Source: a virus | IMG/VR virus record: IMGVR_UViG_3300029448_000040 | Coordinates: 1-36,857 of that record | DNA length: 36,857 bases | Strand: one strand, 5' to 3' | Part shown: piece after piece, positions 1 to 25,504 of the stretch | Layout of the letters: each line of letters opens with the position of its first letter | Numbering within the stretch: position 1 is the first letter of the stretch | The notes under the pieces: generated by a model | Told to the model about the DNA's origin: nothing | Seen by the model: only the letters and a program-made list of their open reading frames with translations | Database searches by the model: none | Position numbers and translations under genes: made by a program

Positions 1-1498
1 TGCGACCATCATCAAAAACAATCGGGTGGTCACCTTTAAGGTCTACTGCCTTACGGAGTTGGACGATAATGTTCTTGTCTGCTTCACGGTCATCGTCACC
101 TCTCGCACCAACTGCCTCACCGTACATCTGCTTGTACTTTTGAGTGTACTTAGACGGTTTGGTCTTCGCACCCTTATCACCCGGTGCAGTTTTGTATGAT
201 GCAGGATCATTATCTGGTTTATCAGCACCTTTCGCAAACTGCTTTGCTCGTGCCTCTTTCTCTTTATCAGAGAGTCCCTTGTAATACTTTTTGGGTTGTG
301 TGCCAGGTAAATCTTTGACATCTGGGTCTTGTGCAACTTTTTGCTCAAACTGTGCGTTGATGTCAAATGCCTCAAACATTGCGTCGAACGATTCGTTCTT
401 ACCTGAACGTGCCTTTGCCACACGTTCCATTTCTTTCTTACGAACCTTTGGAAGTAAACGTTTTGACAAAGCACCCACAGCAGACTTTTTCTTTTCAAGC
501 ATCTTATCCACCGATATCTTTTGTGTCGTAGACAGGTTTTTATAGTTCGCACCCATTTTGCCCGCAACTTTGCGTCTTAGAATGTTCAGTGCTGCCTTTC
601 GTGCCCGATATGCCAAACGGTCTGGAGGTGCAACACGTTTTGCCTTGATTTTACGGAAACGTGCCAAACGTGGTGCGAGTCGTTTCATCCGACGACCCAT
701 CTTTAGACGTTGCTGAAGTGTCAGTGGTTTGCGTTCTTGGAGGTCTTTCTCCTCTTCATCGTCCTCATCGCCCAATTCGTCATCTGGAATTAGAAAGTCC
801 AAAGCAGGAATGTCGGAGTCTTGAGGATCAAGTTCATCAAACTCATCATCGTCATTGGTGTCGATACCAAACAACTCACGGTCTAGTTCATCATCATCAA
901 CTTCTAGGTCTGCTTCGGTGAGTTGTAATTCTTCTTTTATTATCTCATTCAGTCCCATAGATTTCTTTACGGCATTGAACATTTCTTCAGAATCAATGCC
1001 TTTAGGTGTGCCCTTCTTGAAACTGACCATATCATTATTCTGAACCGCAAGACGCATCTTGCTTGCACTCATGCCAGTAACACCTTCGGAATCAGGGTCT
1101 CTTTCCCCTGCCGATTGGACATCAATGCTATTAAATGTATAATCTTTGCCGTTGTATTTGTTAAGCAAACGGTCAAATTCTGGAACACGGTCTGATCCTG
1201 CTACCATAATGATATCAGTAAAACCTTCTGTTTGAAGTTCTTTTAGCACATTGATAACAGTCTTCGCATCTGATTTGGTCACCATATTACCAAATGCTTG
1301 TTTTGCGAACTTGACTTTCTGATCGTATGAAAGGGGGTCTTTCTTATTTTTTGGATCAATTTGTACAGAGGTATGAGACAAGTAGATTCTTGCAGTGGCA
1401 CGTTCCTTACGAGCGACAGCATTGATTTTGTCTGCGAGTTTCTTATGACCAACAGTCGGAGGGTTCATCCGACCAAAGGCAAATACAATTTTCTTCAC
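1..1498 (-). CDS. Cytidylyltransferase-like nucleotidyltransferase with long charged C-terminal tail (3' end cut by window edge)
   Basis: The reading frame is open to the left edge, so at least 499 codons are present and the C-terminus is missing. I start it at a GTG at 1498, preceded by AAGGA seven bases upstream. Residues 1-150 look like a nucleotidylyltransferase fold: GRMNPPTVGH at 9-18 is the (H/T)xGH-type nucleotide-binding signature, GSDR lies near 101, and SASKMR at 144-149 matches the late (I/S)SxTxIR motif. A very acidic stretch (about 200-251) and then a strongly basic stretch (about 260-310) follow, which suggests nucleic-acid or virion contact. The known family transfers CMP or AMP to a small phosphorylated substrate; the substrate here is unknown. 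It follows the ligase-like gene and has its own TATAAATA late box at 1536-1543, so late expression is likely. Similar tailed nucleotidyltransferases are, to my knowledge, carried by marine T4-like phages. Confidence 0.75.
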   Translation of the reverse strand, partial: MKKIVFAFGRMNPPTVGHKKLADKINAVARKERATARIYLSHTSVQIDPKNKKDPLSYDQKVKFAKQAFGNMVTKSDAKTVINVLKELQTEGFTDIIMVAGSDRVPEFDRLLNKYNGKDYTFNSIDVQSAGERDPDSEGVTGMSASKMRLAVQNNDMVSFKKGTPKGIDSEEMFNAVKKSMGLNEIIKEELQLTEADLEVDDDELDRELFGIDTNDDDEFDELDPQDSDIPALDFLIPDDELGDEDDEEEKDLQERKPLTLQQRLKMGRRMKRLAPRLARFRKIKAKRVAPPDRLAYRARKAALNILRRKVAGKMGANYKNLSTTQKISVDKMLEKKKSAVGALSKRLLPKVRKKEMERVAKARSGKNESFDAMFEAFDINAQFEQKVAQDPDVKDLPGTQPKKYYKGLSDKEKEARAKQFAKGADKPDNDPASYKTAPGDKGAKTKPSKYTQKYKQMYGEAVGARGDDDREADKNIIVQLRKAVDLKGDHPIVFDDGR

Positions 1499-1535: not shown

Positions 1536-1543
1536 TATTTATA
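1536..1543 (-). promoter_or_regulatory. Late promoter box (TATAAATA)
   Basis: The minus strand reads TATAAATA exactly, the T4 late-promoter consensus recognised by gp55. It overlaps the stop codon of the ligase-like gene and lies about 38 bases upstream of the GTG start at 1498, which fits a leader carrying the AAGGA ribosome site. Confidence 0.7.
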
Positions 1544-2768
1544 CTTTTTGCCATCCCTTGAGGACTTCTGGTGAAAAGTTTGCATAACTAAATTGCAGTC
1601 GATCAACCAGTTTGATTGCATTTCCTGAATGATCAATCGCAACATATCCCTCTTGTTCTGTCACTTTGTATCCATCCTTGGTTTTGAGGAATGTACCAAT
1701 ACTTTTTGTTGTGTCCATTTTTTTGATGAATATTGACTTGACTTTTTGGATATCTTTATAAATCGTGAAAATATCGACAAGTGCTTCTGGTTGTGTTACC
1801 ACCTTTAGCATATCTTCTTTCTTCTGACGAGCAGGTGCTTTGCCTCGTTCAGTCTTCTTTGACTCAATCTGCTCGTCATAATATGTAATCAGATAATCTA
1901 CTAAGTCACGGACAAACGCACGAGGTGACCCGATGTCTTCTTGATCACGGACTTTGCTATTAATAAATGCCTTGATGCGAGTATTTAAATCATTGTTCTC
2001 TGCGATTGCATTCATCACGGATGCATCGACACCTCTGAACTTGCGTCCGATAGTGGACAGCAAACTTGTCACTTCGGTGGTCTCGTCTTCGGTAAAGGTT
2101 GCGACACCAGACACATCACGATAGGTTGCGTTATCCATAAACACCGATGATGTCTTTTTGAGTTTGCCCACAATGTCAGCAGTGAAGTCTGCCTTCATTG
2201 ACTCTAACGACTTACCAGTATACTTGGTGTGCCAAATGACACCAATCTTCGCACGACCAATCTTACCCGCTAAACCAGAACCAACAGGAACCGCATACAC
2301 GATTGTGTTTGGTTGGAACGTCAGGTTCGATTCTCCATCTATTTTTGTTTTCTTGAGATCAGATTTTGTAAATAAGAGATCACCTTGGATAATGTCCGTG
2401 ATACCCAACTTTGAAAATTCAGATAGTGCAATTGCAAACTTTGATTTAAGGTCTGTAGGTAGTTCTTTAGCACTTCGTATTTCGCTTTGAGTTTTGTACA
2501 ATAATGGTTGAACATTGAAGATTCCTTTTTTTGCTACAAAAAATTTCCCATCTCTGGGGTCTATTCCCGCAAATATAGCGGGTGCTCCATCCCACTTCAC
2601 TGTCGTGTTGATCGGTTGCGTTGCCCGACCTGACATCATATCTCGTAATGACTGTAAAAAGTTGATTGCCTGACGAGTGCCATCCACACCCCCATTGAGA
2701 ACCAAATCCTCAAGGTGCTCCATGTGAACATTCTTTTCTTCAGACAGAAATGCTTGTAATCTTTGCAT
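1539..2768 (-). CDS. Putative divergent ligase-like nucleotidyltransferase (phage protein of unknown function)
   Basis: A 409-residue protein that I do not recognise by name. Its motif order resembles the covalent nucleotidyltransferase superfamily (DNA/RNA ligases and capping enzymes). KWDG at 58-61 fits motif I (KxDG) with K58 as candidate nucleophile. QGDLLF at 128-133 resembles motif III. EGYVAID at 373-379 fits motif IV (EGxV), and KLVDR at 386-390 could carry the motif V lysine. A mainly helical region of about 200 residues separates motifs III and IV, longer than in known ligases. If correct, the enzyme would adenylylate itself and act on nucleic-acid ends. The first 30 residues include a segment repeated in the small frame just upstream. 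The ATG at 2768 has only a weak GGAA site. The gene lies between a PD-(D/E)XK-like protein and a cytidylyltransferase-like protein. Function is inferred from motifs only. Confidence 0.6.
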   Translation of the reverse strand: MQRLQAFLSEEKNVHMEHLEDLVLNGGVDGTRQAINFLQSLRDMMSGRATQPINTTVKWDGAPAIFAGIDPRDGKFFVAKKGIFNVQPLLYKTQSEIRSAKELPTDLKSKFAIALSEFSKLGITDIIQGDLLFTKSDLKKTKIDGESNLTFQPNTIVYAVPVGSGLAGKIGRAKIGVIWHTKYTGKSLESMKADFTADIVGKLKKTSSVFMDNATYRDVSGVATFTEDETTEVTSLLSTIGRKFRGVDASVMNAIAENNDLNTRIKAFINSKVRDQEDIGSPRAFVRDLVDYLITYYDEQIESKKTERGKAPARQKKEDMLKVVTQPEALVDIFTIYKDIQKVKSIFIKKMDTTKSIGTFLKTKDGYKVTEQEGYVAIDHSGNAIKLVDRLQFSYANFSPEVLKGWQKV

Positions 2769-2883
2769 CGATACATTTTTCCAATTTATACGAATTGTGA
2801 AATTCTACGCCCACCCCGTTGTCGAGGATCAAATCTTCAATGTGCTCCATATGCACATTTTTTTCTTCAGTTAAATATATCAT
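2740..2883 (-). pseudogene. 47-codon orphan gene head duplicating the N-terminus of the ligase-like gene
   Basis: An ATG at 2883 overlaps the TGA stop of the upstream gene (ATGA) and opens 47 codons ending in TGA at 2740, across the start of the 409-residue gene in another frame. Residues 4-24 carry EEKNVHMEHIEDLIL, nearly identical to EEKNVHMEHLEDLVL near residues 10-24 of the 409-residue protein. After that the similarity stops. The copies differ mostly at third codon positions, so the duplication is not recent. It may be a remnant of a paralogous gene lost by deletion, or a translated leader peptide coupled to the downstream gene. Confidence 0.55.
2783..2790 (-). promoter_or_regulatory. 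Possible variant late box (TATAAATT)
   Basis: The minus strand reads TATAAATT, one base from the TATAAATA consensus, about 15 bases before the ATG at 2768. The leader would be very short, so this is tentative. Confidence 0.25.
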
Positions 2884-3653
2884 TTTATTAAGAACAAGGG
2901 GTCACGGTCTAAATCGTAAGAACTAGCTCTCAGTCTACCGATTTTCAATGCCATGAGGAATGAATACCGTGCCTGAGATTTAGAGTTCGCTTTAATTCGT
3001 ATTCTAATACTACTATCGCCTACCATAGAGGAAAATCTAGGAACACCAAAGTTCATAGGATCGCTTCCAAGATAATATAATCCCTTCCCTTTAATTTGGA
3101 TATAATATGTGCTCTTTGAGTTGTAGTATTTTTCAACTTGCTCTGCCGCAAGAGATCCACCTTTGGCTAAAAAGAAATCTTTGAATCGTGCCAAATCCAA
3201 CTGATATGCGTCTTTTCTTTGTTGTAATCCCGCAGTCGGTGGTAATGTGAATTTTGCAGGTGGGGTTTCTTTTGGTTTCCACTGATCATTTGTCTTTCCA
3301 ATAATATTAAACTCTTCAGCAATACCTATCATTGTCATTGCTGCTTCTTTGGTATTGGAAGATTTTGTCTTATCAATATAGAATTGCTTTAATGTTGTAT
3401 CGAAATCCATATTCAACTGAGCAAAGTCAGCAGATAGTTTTTCCTTCAACTCAAATTTAATAGGGCTAGTTTGACTTGGTAAATATAGTTCCAAATCTGC
3501 CTTTGCGTTGTCTGCACCCGCCGGATCACCTGTGCGAAAACCTTGATCTCGCAATCGCTTGATCAAGTCAATTTCATATTGGAACCCTGCATTCTGGTTA
3601 ATTGGTGCACCAGTGTCGTTTGTAAGGGCTTGGGTATCTTTTATCTTTGCCAT
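2880..3653 (-). CDS. PD-(D/E)XK endonuclease-like protein
   Basis: I start this 257-residue protein at the ATG at 3653 (MAKIKD); a longer frame from 3689 would run deep into the previous gene. Residues 24-70 fit a restriction-endonuclease-like core: Y26 and E27 on the first helix, D53 in ADLELYL, and E68-L-K70 in FELKEK, giving the D-(X)14-ExK pattern. The rest (90-257) has no recognisable domain and is rich in Lys and Tyr. A nuclease acting on DNA or RNA is inferred from this spacing alone. Its stop overlaps the ATG of the 47-codon fragment. The neighbour downstream is ligase-like, which would suit a cut-and-seal or end-processing role. The start has no clear Shine-Dalgarno sequence, and a TATAAATA lies only five bases upstream. 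Confidence 0.5.
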   Translation of the reverse strand: MAKIKDTQALTNDTGAPINQNAGFQYEIDLIKRLRDQGFRTGDPAGADNAKADLELYLPSQTSPIKFELKEKLSADFAQLNMDFDTTLKQFYIDKTKSSNTKEAAMTMIGIAEEFNIIGKTNDQWKPKETPPAKFTLPPTAGLQQRKDAYQLDLARFKDFFLAKGGSLAAEQVEKYYNSKSTYYIQIKGKGLYYLGSDPMNFGVPRFSSMVGDSSIRIRIKANSKSQARYSFLMALKIGRLRASSYDLDRDPLFLIK

Positions 3654-3657
3654 GCAC

Positions 3658-4050
3658 TTATTTATATTCTTCAATGAACCCTTTTGCAAGCACCCCCTCT
3701 AGTTGGTACGCTTCCTTCTCATACCAAAGGTTCAAATACTCCTCTTGTGTTTTGTATTCCATCTTACCGTCAATAGCAAGTTCTTTTCTGGCGTATTGTT
3801 TGATGTGGACGCATTCGTGTGCGAGTGTTTCTATCAGTGTGTAAGTGTCGATGTCTTCTTTGACTTCAATGACAAACTCTCGTGGGGTGACTGCTAAACA
3901 ATAACCAAGTGCATCACAATCACCTTCAATTTGGATGCAAACATCAAGTGTCTTCATTCGGGGCATCAACTTGCCAATGCAGTAGTTGACAACATTCTCT
4001 GCCAAACGGCAAGTCTCTTCGTTTTCACCCCAAGCAGCCACTAGATTCAT
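3658..4050 (-). CDS. Predicted small zinc metallopeptidase-like protein
   Basis: A 130-residue protein starting at the ATG at 4050, which overlaps the previous stop as ATGA and has AAGGTGG upstream. A longer frame to 4119 exists but is less likely. HECVH at 78-82 is an HExxH zincin motif on a helix (ETLAHECVHIKQYA), and a conserved-looking WYEKEAYQLE at about 109-118 could give the third, glutamate ligand. This resembles small SprT- or DUF-type metallopeptidases of marine phages. No signal peptide or membrane segment is visible, so it would act in the cytoplasm; the target is unknown. It is the fifth gene in a tight, translationally coupled run beginning at 5328. Confidence 0.6.
   Translation of the reverse strand: MNLVAAWGENEETCRLAENVVNYCIGKLMPRMKTLDVCIQIEGDCDALGYCLAVTPREFVIEVKEDIDTYTLIETLAHECVHIKQYARKELAIDGKMEYKTQEEYLNLWYEKEAYQLEGVLAKGFIEEYK
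3659..3666 (-). promoter_or_regulatory. Late promoter box (TATAAATA) at the start of the PD-(D/E)XK-like gene
   Basis: A perfect TATAAATA on the minus strand, but it is also the Tyr-Lys-stop end of the upstream gene. Its last base is five bases from the ATG at 3653, so transcription would start at or near the initiation codon and the message would be leaderless. It may be chance. Confidence 0.4.
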
Positions 4051-4265
4051 TTCCACACCACCTTGTTCAAGTCTCTGCCACTCTTGCTCACCACAACAAA
4101 CTGATGGACACCAGTGCAACGATCAACCCACTGAGGTAAAATACAAACATTCTGAGCAACAGTTTGGGCGATCATTGGAAATCCATCATTGAAAAAAAAC
4201 ATTGTATGGCGAACCTGTTTTGCGGGTTTGTGCCACAACTTCACTAAACCACTTGTTTGAATCAT
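4047..4265 (-). CDS. Small hypothetical protein (72 aa)
   Basis: Start ATG at 4265 is chosen because TTAGGAG lies nine bases upstream; an upstream ATG at 4301 lacks such a site. The protein holds a hydrophobic centre, two Cys residues (CILPQW and DRCTGV) and a basic C-terminus. It overlaps the next gene by ATGA. I do not recognise it. Confidence 0.55.
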   Translation of the reverse strand: MIQTSGLVKLWHKPAKQVRHTMFFFNDGFPMIAQTVAQNVCILPQWVDRCTGVHQFVVVSKSGRDLNKVVWK

Positions 4266-23673: not shown

Positions 23674-24725
23674 TCGATATAAAGTGCCTCAGTATACAAA
23701 TCATTCAACAAACCAGACAGTTTCTTTTTATCAACATCTGATTCTATACCATCAACATACTTGTTGAGAATTGTCAGTGTGTCTTCGGCATCCATAATCT
23801 CTTCATCTTTTTCCAAATCCAAGTTCTTATTATCCTCAACAATTGTCAGATGTGTGGGGTCACACTTATAGAGTTTGTCGAGGAACTGGTCGAACCAATA
23901 TGGGTTCTTTTTGGTCTGAACGATGACTTTAATATACTTACCCTTGAAGTGGTCAAAGTCCAAGTTCATCATCTGATCTAAATCATACTGATCATCGTTA
24001 TACCATACTTTATGGAACATGCGAATCGGATTCTGGATGAACTCCAATTCACGAGTATCTGTATCAAAAATGTGGAAACCACGAGGATCATCATAGTCAC
24101 CCCAAGTTATCTCATATGGATTGCCCAAGTATGTGATATTGCCCTGTGTAGATTTATGATGGAAGTGACCCGACAATACCATATCAAACTTTTGGAAGTG
24201 CTTGATTGGCATCCCGTGGTCACAAGTTTGACCTCGCATCATTTCAAATCCCGCAATCTCAAAGTGACCGAACATCACCTGTGCGTCTGTCTGCTCCATC
24301 TTATTGATTGCGGAGTTGTAGTTGGTGTTGTTTATCCACGGCATCATCAGAATCTTGAGACCGTCAAATGATGCCTCTTGTGTCTCCCAATAAATTTTAC
24401 CTACGGAACTACCAAAGATTTCACGCATTGCATTGATATCATTTGTATTTCGGTAGGGGATGTCGTGGTTACCGACAATACAGTGGAAGTTGATGTTTCG
24501 ATCTGCCATTGGTTGCACAAAATGATCCCTAAATGATCTGAGTGTAACATAAGAAATAAACTTTCTCCGATCAACAATATCTCCCAAGTGAACAATAGTG
24601 TCAATGTCGTGATCATCAATATAAGGAAAAAACACGTTATCATAGAAGTCAGTAAAATAGTCAGTAAATACCTGAGAGTCATTTCTTGCCCCCCAATGCG
24701 TGTCGGTGATCAGTGCGATCTTCAT
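23670..24725 (-). CDS. 47: Recombination nuclease subunit, SbcD/Mre11-like (T4 gp47)
   Basis: The Mre11-type phosphoesterase partner of gp46. In 351 residues (T4: 339) the metallophosphoesterase motifs are complete: TDTHWGARND (7-16), GDIVDRR (about 48-54), GNHD (about 86-89), FGHFEIAG and SGHFHHK. The C-terminal region with an acidic helix should hold the gp46-binding part. It overlaps gp46 and the upstream fusion gene by four bases each, so the four genes from 25504 to 20876 are translationally coupled. Confidence 0.95.
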   Translation of the reverse strand: MKIALITDTHWGARNDSQVFTDYFTDFYDNVFFPYIDDHDIDTIVHLGDIVDRRKFISYVTLRSFRDHFVQPMADRNINFHCIVGNHDIPYRNTNDINAMREIFGSSVGKIYWETQEASFDGLKILMMPWINNTNYNSAINKMEQTDAQVMFGHFEIAGFEMMRGQTCDHGMPIKHFQKFDMVLSGHFHHKSTQGNITYLGNPYEITWGDYDDPRGFHIFDTDTRELEFIQNPIRMFHKVWYNDDQYDLDQMMNLDFDHFKGKYIKVIVQTKKNPYWFDQFLDKLYKCDPTHLTIVEDNKNLDLEKDEEIMDAEDTLTILNKYVDGIESDVDKKKLSGLLNDLYTEALYIE

Positions 24726-25504
24726 CCAATTCCCATCTCTTTACGAATCTTGGTTGCTGAAATTTCTTGGATTTCTTTTGGCAACACAACCTCTTCAATC
24801 TTATAACCAACATCTCGCCCATACACAATATTTGTAATATTAGGCACTTGAATTATTCTAAACCTATCCCCATATAAAGGAAACAACGCATCAATAATTC
24901 TTGACTTGACAAAATCAAAGTCGAATGGATTCTTACCATCGACCCCCTGTACATCCCTTACCATAATCTGAACTTGACCTGCACGTTTCAGAGACTCCTC
25001 AAACAGTGTCTGATGCCCCTTGTGCCACGGTTGCCACCGCCCAAGCATTTGGACTGTCGGTGCTTTGTTGTTCCACACATATGGTTCAATCAAATGTTCT
25101 ACCCTGTACGGATTCACAAAGTCCCATTCAGTCAAACGCAAGTCATACTTGGTTGGTTTTTGGAACAGTAAATTAGTATCATTATACCTACCTTTTTCGA
25201 TGGTGTCAACCCAAATCGTAATATCGGCATTGAATAATTCACGCAATTCATCAGTTGGACACACGAAATCACAAATGACATGATTGCCACCACTCGCAAC
25301 CACTTCTGACATTTGTGCCATTCTTTTTGCTTGACGTTCTCTCCCTTCAGGTGAGAAGTCCCAATCCTCGTACTCCTCACGCACTCTATCGGCATTGAAC
25401 CAAGTCACACGGTCTGACCCCATCAATGAAATCACTTGCTCTGTGAGTGTGGTCTTACCCGCACCCGGTAGACCCATAATCAGAATTCTCTTACCTCGTT
25501 CCAT
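24722..25504 (-). CDS. APS-kinase-like P-loop kinase fused to a nucleotidylyltransferase
   Basis: A 260-residue two-domain protein. Residues 1-120 resemble adenylylsulfate kinase: Walker A GLPGAGKT (11-18), FNADRVREEYEDWDFS (36-51, the place of the APS-kinase DGDxxR loop), and a RQAKRMAQMSEVVASGG helix before VICDFVCP. Residues 150-260 carry a nucleotidylyltransferase with GRWQPWHKGH (155-164) and ISATKIR (248-254), as in NMN adenylyltransferases of the NadM/NadR group. The pairing recalls NadR (NMNAT plus ribosylnicotinamide kinase) in reverse order, so an NAD-salvage-like or small-molecule activation role is one option; sulfate activation is another. The substrate cannot be told from sequence. 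It sits between gp55 and gp47, overlapping both. Confidence 0.75.
   Translation of the reverse strand: MERGKRILIMGLPGAGKTTLTEQVISLMGSDRVTWFNADRVREEYEDWDFSPEGRERQAKRMAQMSEVVASGGNHVICDFVCPTDELRELFNADITIWVDTIEKGRYNDTNLLFQKPTKYDLRLTEWDFVNPYRVEHLIEPYVWNNKAPTVQMLGRWQPWHKGHQTLFEESLKRAGQVQIMVRDVQGVDGKNPFDFDFVKSRIIDALFPLYGDRFRIIQVPNITNIVYGRDVGYKIEEVVLPKEIQEISATKIRKEMGIG

Follow-up and report, generated by a model that had tools for sequence, protein, structure and literature searches.

The described enzymes closest to the protein reported here are ligases of the covalent nucleotidyltransferase type. The T4 RNA ligase Rnl1 (PF09511) has a KxDG motif with a basic residue approximately 20 residues on, reads EGYVA...K across motifs IV and V, and lacks an OB domain; the T4 DNA ligase gp30 (PF01068) carries KxDG in a covalent nucleotidyltransferase core. 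These features recur in a predicted protein of a T4-like phage, encoded within positions 1 to 36,857 of IMG/VR virus record IMGVR_UViG_3300029448_000040 (58 kilobases [kb] in total; the 36,857 nucleotides analysed are hereafter called the window). Genes for UvsX, a DnaB-type helicase, a family B polymerase, a sliding clamp, gp46/47-like proteins, the portal and the major head protein were recognised by eye in the window. The gene in question (1539..2768) has an ATG start codon at 2768 and encodes 409 amino acids (aa). An initial annotation, made by a model from the sequence, had its coordinates right; the gene lies on the minus strand, as do all other genes and protein motifs of the window located below. 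Its product belongs to DUF6267 (PF19782; 341.8 bits against a cut-off of 27, E 8e-102) as well as to phrog_455, and T4-GC 71 is the same family. Neither Pfam, PHROGs nor the open literature gives a function for this family, which bears out the earlier description of an unknown phage gene.

Motifs and predicted structure indicate that DUF6267 is very probably a divergent covalent nucleotidyltransferase, forming a lysyl-nucleoside monophosphate (NMP) intermediate, and we predict with moderate assurance that it works as a polynucleotide ligase. In such a ligase, lysyl-AMP would arise by attack of K58 on the alpha-phosphate of ATP (or NAD+), with E373, D130, Y158, K81 and K386 holding and orienting the nucleotide and metal; a 5'-phosphate end would then receive the AMP, after which the break would be sealed. 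The enzyme would act beside, and sometimes fused to, a nicotinamide mononucleotide (NMN) adenylyltransferase (NMNAT)-like domain. Nucleotide, acceptor and sealing step are what we infer from the motifs observed, their invariance and the predicted fold.

Active-site motifs and predicted fold

KWDG (58-61), QGDLLF (128-133), EGYV (373-376) and, within KLVDR, the lysine K386 are all located as the initial annotation described. In shuffles of the window protein, the motif pattern arises at a rate of 5e-5 in its strict form and 0.0034 in its loose form. Relatives were collected from viral contigs (80 related to the long form, to which the window protein belongs, and 80 related to a short form of approximately 300 aa), with more from annotated phages; 36 others came from genome assemblies, where they may represent viral contigs or binned prophages. 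Conservation was scored in 54 non-redundant relatives less than 75% identical to one another.

Motif I (KWDG, 2586..2597) contains the candidate adenylylated lysine K58, present in 53 of the 54 relatives (the remaining row is truncated), while its D and G are found in all 54. K81 (2526..2528; 54/54) would take the place of R55 in T4 Rnl2 or K119 in T4 Rnl1, an equivalence suggested by its spacing from motif I (FKSKG in Rnl1, FVAKKG in DUF6267). Motif III (QGDLLF, 2370..2387), with the acidic D130, is followed by a motif IIIa-like TIVYAVP (155-161; 2286..2306) that includes Y158. Motif IV (EGYV, 1641..1652) aligns with EGYV of T4 Rnl1, and in the motif V-like KLVDR (386-390; 1599..1613) K386 aligns with K240 of the same enzyme. 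Across the family the consensus is KxDG for motif I, Q-x-D130 for motif III and EG[FY]V for motif IV. The residues invariant in all 54 relatives are D60, G61, G68, K81, Q128, D130, P153, Y158, H180, N270, K344, E373, G374, V376, K386, R390, F393 and N397. Invariance of the catalytic residues spans a pelagiphage, a Stenotrophomonas phage and cyanophages, down to approximately 24% identity; the nucleotidyltransferase motif residues, in the right order, have thus stayed fixed while most other positions changed. A further motif, NxHxEHxED (residues 13-21; 2706..2732), is nearly invariant in the same set, precedes the core and is not a canonical ligase motif. The NMN-binding Ia domain of NAD+-dependent ligases was not recognised by eye in the region of this motif and the N-terminal helix.

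Two structures were predicted with AlphaFold: a long-form model of the window protein (36 sequences; mean predicted local distance difference test [pLDDT] 84, predicted template modelling score [pTM] 0.73) and a separately built short-form model of L092 (pLDDT 85, pTM 0.78). In the long-form model, strands 54-57 and 64-69 are joined by the loop that carries K58; strand 126-134 contains D130 and strand 156-161 contains Y158, while E373 is directly ahead of strand 375-378 and K386 ends strand 384-386. When this model is compared with the PDB by VIA-align, 49 of the best 50 alignments are to RNA or DNA ligases and one is unrelated. RNA editing ligase 1 (REL1) heads the matches (Z 8.6 over 189 residues, 4.8 Å), with the Naegleria gruberi RNA ligase (Naegleria Rnl; Z 8.4), T4 Rnl2 (8.2), several DNA ligases and T4 Rnl1 (7.4) also found; identity to the first three is approximately 11-14%. 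The best 50 rows for the short-form model are all ligases, with Naegleria Rnl (Z 8.5) and T4 Rnl1 (7.8) in the lead, and its raw Foldseek rows are mostly ligases or capping enzymes. In the Foldseek lists, LigA-type structures are confined to the lower ranks, an observation that excludes nothing. Going by the aligned C-terminal ranges, K386 presumably stands opposite the first of the motif V lysines in Rnl1, Rnl2, Naegleria Rnl and LIG1. The case for the fold is built on the agreement of the two models and on motifs that are both suitably placed and invariant, rather than on any single Z value. The initial annotation had proposed a ligase or NMP-transferase, to be checked by the conservation of K58 and E373 (53/54 and 54/54) and by structure prediction against T4 Rnl1, Rnl2 and DNA ligase; conserved residues and a predicted nucleotidyltransferase core now support its proposal.

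The strands of the long-form model run up to approximately residue 213, and a helical insert (227-352; 1713..2090) separates motif IIIa from motif IV. The initial annotation had placed a helical insert of roughly 200 residues between motifs III and IV: the helices are there, although the insert is shorter, at approximately 126 residues of a motif III-to-IV spacing of approximately 243. It is shorter again in the short forms, which manage with approximately 169 residues between these motifs. Only 19 residues follow R390 and the model shows no OB-fold strands among them; there is therefore no C-terminal OB domain. Likewise, the 57 residues ahead of K58 are mostly one helix, which leaves no N-terminal OB domain. 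Neither the N-terminal OB domain of Naegleria Rnl nor the C-terminal domain of Rnl2 fits in DUF6267, and the C-terminal tRNA-binding domain of T4 Rnl1 is absent. DUF6267 also differs from Rnl1 in its helical insert and in having KxV for KxK, and from gp30 in having no OB domain, no DNA-binding domain and no sequence match. DUF6267 thus has no OB domain, departs from the usual motif V and shows no significant sequence similarity to any ligase family, and we read these three features as the marks of the new class that the initial annotation had proposed.

Sequence profiles give sub-threshold signals. Among the DUF6267 members scanned, there is no match to PF01068 (ATP-dependent DNA ligase), PF01653 (NAD+-dependent DNA ligase adenylation domain) or the capping-enzyme Pfam families, and none over the cut-off to PF09414 (T4 Rnl2/RNA_ligase) in the members or their loci. 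One member, the protein of S-RIM32, gives a weak match to PF09511 that reaches motif IV (residues 286-376; 14.2 bits against a cut-off of 28.3, E 0.039). When a profile of the 54 DUF6267 sequences is compared with 22 Rnl1 sequences by hhalign, EGYVAIDHSGNAIKL is aligned with EGYVAVMKDGSHFKI at an E value of 0.035 and motifs IV and V are in register; as a yardstick, the known relatives Rnl2 and Rnl1 give 0.019. Comparisons of DUF6267 with the Rnl2 and gp30 families failed or were out of register, but at this shallow depth hhalign also misses Rnl2 against gp30, so these failures count neither way. No match to DUF6267 was found in the PDB by phmmer or profile search. Matches to SWI2_SNF2 (19 members, best E 3e-4) and to TIGR00348 hsdR each cover approximately 20-40 residues around WHTKYTG and were taken to be local chance matches.

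NMN-adenylyltransferase-like partner and N-terminal leader

Downstream of the DUF6267 gene, and cut by the window end, is a gene (2..1498) with an N-terminal NMNAT-like domain (GRMNPPTVGH; PF01467, E 5e-5; phrog_3041, E 5e-54). This is the cytidylyltransferase-like neighbour of the initial annotation, and it is both real and conserved: of the 125 loci with enough sequence (many of them near-duplicates), 108 have a G-R-x-N/Q-P-P-T-x-G-H-type signature no more than 4 kb downstream of DUF6267 and on its strand. The two domains are fused in a 728-aa protein of metaG-MbCM1 and lie in one reading frame in S-PM2, whose fusion protein is listed intact in BFVD (591 aa). For the S-PM2 domain, the highest-scoring models are those of NMN adenylyltransferases (TIGR00482, 8.5e-7; TIGR01526, 3.2e-5; both below their cut-offs). 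In the S-PM2 RefSeq record (L226, NC_006820, 4526-6305), an apparent frameshift inside DUF6267 splits the gene and hides this natural fusion. A second NMNAT-like protein of the window phage is encoded at 24725-25504, where a P-loop kinase (APS-kinase-like) is fused to an NMNAT-like domain, the reverse of the NadR domain order.

The window protein begins with MQRLQAFLSE (2739..2768), which is similar to the T4 capsid-targeting sequence, with cleavage expected after the E. All 35 long forms examined begin with a peptide of this kind, such as MQRLQAFLSE-E, MKTLKSFIAE-E or MKKFTTYLAE-E, and a fixed leader pattern fits 33 of them. In a T4 control covering approximately 40% of that genome, the pattern occurs at 8 of 421 methionine positions in the tested regions. 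Its matches include head proteins: two internal proteins with MKTYQEFIAE, which we take to be IPII and IPIII, as well as gp24 and Alt (these two assigned by position). A 274-aa match is presumably gp2. The internal head proteins of T4 (IPII, IPIII and Alt) share the leader M-x-x-hydrophobic-x-x-aromatic-L/I-x-E; the rest of DUF6267 is unrelated to them. Such leaders, through which T4 internal proteins are packaged (PMC3012670), are 10-20 residues long and are cut after a glutamate (PMC5694885). Judging from this resemblance, we predict that long-form DUF6267, including that of the window, is probably enclosed in the phage head and enters the cell along with the virion DNA. The short DUF6267 of cyanophages (MPNKHLEH...) has no leader, whereas its NMNAT-like partner does (MKKFSAFLSEA...), and that partner, T4-GC190, has been detected in S-SM1 virions (PMC3037559). 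Capsid-targeting-like leaders are also present on other genes beside DUF6267, in L018, L037, L046 and L008 and on the T4-GC190 genes of cyanophages, so several of the proteins encoded around DUF6267 may be injected as a set.

Possible roles of DUF6267

By tblastn, the family is found in 469 phage records, of which 371 are named Synechococcus and 61 Cyanophage. The corresponding numbers for UvsX are 375 and 62, counted by name without record-by-record matching. On this evidence, nearly all T4-like cyanophages would carry DUF6267, with its gene adjoining uvsX and gp41. Twenty phage records with DUF6267 were scanned with PF01068, PF09414 and PF09511, and 17 had no match over the cut-off; PF01653, scanned on 12 of the 20, matched none. 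The record containing the window, a fragment, has no PF01068 match. A 2010 review likewise describes a T4 replisome in cyanomyoviruses in which no g30 DNA ligase homologues were found, allows that distant homologues may have been missed and suggests the host ligase as a possible stand-in (PMC2984593). The gap left by gp30 makes DUF6267 its possible functional counterpart, and in most cyanophages DUF6267 would be the sole phage-encoded ligase-type enzyme. A ligase-type enzyme in this family would give a function to a gene found in more than 460 phage records and would connect an NMNAT-like virion protein with ligation. Few marine viruses are as abundant as the T4-like cyanophages, and the question of their ligase becomes directly testable via a near-universal hypothetical gene whose ligase-type active site is intact.

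Several observations weigh against a ligase. In Pfam profile searches of DUF6267 members, no ligase match reaches its curated threshold, and no in-register alignment with Rnl2 is obtained by hhalign. Taken by itself, Foldseek gives weak matches (best E values 0.025 and 0.043, none below 0.02), and the structural Z values are middling for both models. The second motif V lysine, needed by known ligases, is replaced: at position 388, 52 of the 54 relatives have V and the other 2 have I, and the window protein has V388. The OB domain is missing, including the C-terminal one with motif VI. Simple replacement does not describe DUF6267 either, since it coexists with a regular DNA ligase in DLP6, with DNA and RNA ligases in XG4 and with an RNA ligase in S-CREM1. 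Finally, the NMNAT-like partner is left unexplained by ligation alone. As for the substrate, the predicted fold leans to RNA ligases and the gene content to DNA.

A narrower form of the ligase reading, which overlaps with it, is that DUF6267 serves cyanophages as their replicative DNA ligase and acts on Okazaki fragments in place of T4 gp30. We regard this as a tentative possibility. It would fit the absence of a gp30-type ligase from the cyanophages scanned, the position beside uvsX and gp41 and the near-universal distribution, but a host NAD+-dependent ligase could serve instead, and in DLP6 and XG4 a regular DNA ligase is already present. The best fold matches are to RNA ligases and there is no OB domain; the capsid-targeting-like start of the long form would also point to an early, injected role.

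Rather unlikely, in our estimate, is a covalent nucleotidyltransferase that is not a ligase and transfers NMP to the 5' end of RNA or else to a protein or metabolite (in the manner of capping or AMPylation), in series with the NMNAT-like partner. The tight linkage and fusion to the NMNAT-like domain would be accounted for in this way, as would the altered motif V, the lack of an OB or other nick-binding domain and the regular DNA ligases alongside DUF6267 in DLP6 and XG4; possible packaging in the virion would suit a host-takeover enzyme. The nearest structures, however, are ligases rather than capping enzymes, and no capping-enzyme Pfam family matches the members scanned.

A long shot is an elaboration of the ligase reading in which DUF6267 would be a minimal, OB-less nucleotidyltransferase fuelled by NAD+, with the NMNAT partner remaking NAD+ from the released NMN; injected as a virion-delivered module, the pair would mend DNA or RNA early in infection. 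That DUF6267 is inactive or unrelated and merely resembles the ligase fold would agree with the middling Z values, the lack of a significant sequence match to ligases and V388, but is most improbable given catalytic residues that are fully invariant across deep divergence and two independent models that agree.

Neighbouring genes in the window

Upstream of DUF6267 is a nuclease-like gene (2880-3689; phrog_26930, PD-(D/E)xK-like by eye), the other neighbour reported in the initial annotation. It is present in the window but not conserved: of 145 loci, 4 have a homologue upstream, and one close relative has DUF6267 without this gene, which was therefore dropped as a candidate part of the system. 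In that relative (L001, with a DUF6267 99% identical), a stretch of 870 base pairs (bp) that includes most of the nuclease-like gene (2773-3642) is missing, and DUF6267 directly follows a metallopeptidase-like gene. Approximately 14 bp are repeated at the ends of the insert, which may be mobile or a homing nuclease. Inside the insert, just upstream of the DUF6267 gene, the DUF6267 start is repeated in slightly altered form, EEKNVHMEHIEDLIL (2785-2859), which looks as if it had been carried in from another phage's allele; a search of other viral loci showed no such duplication. In the window, the small metallopeptidase-like protein is encoded at 3658-4119 and has an HECVH motif (DUF6782, E 0.01).
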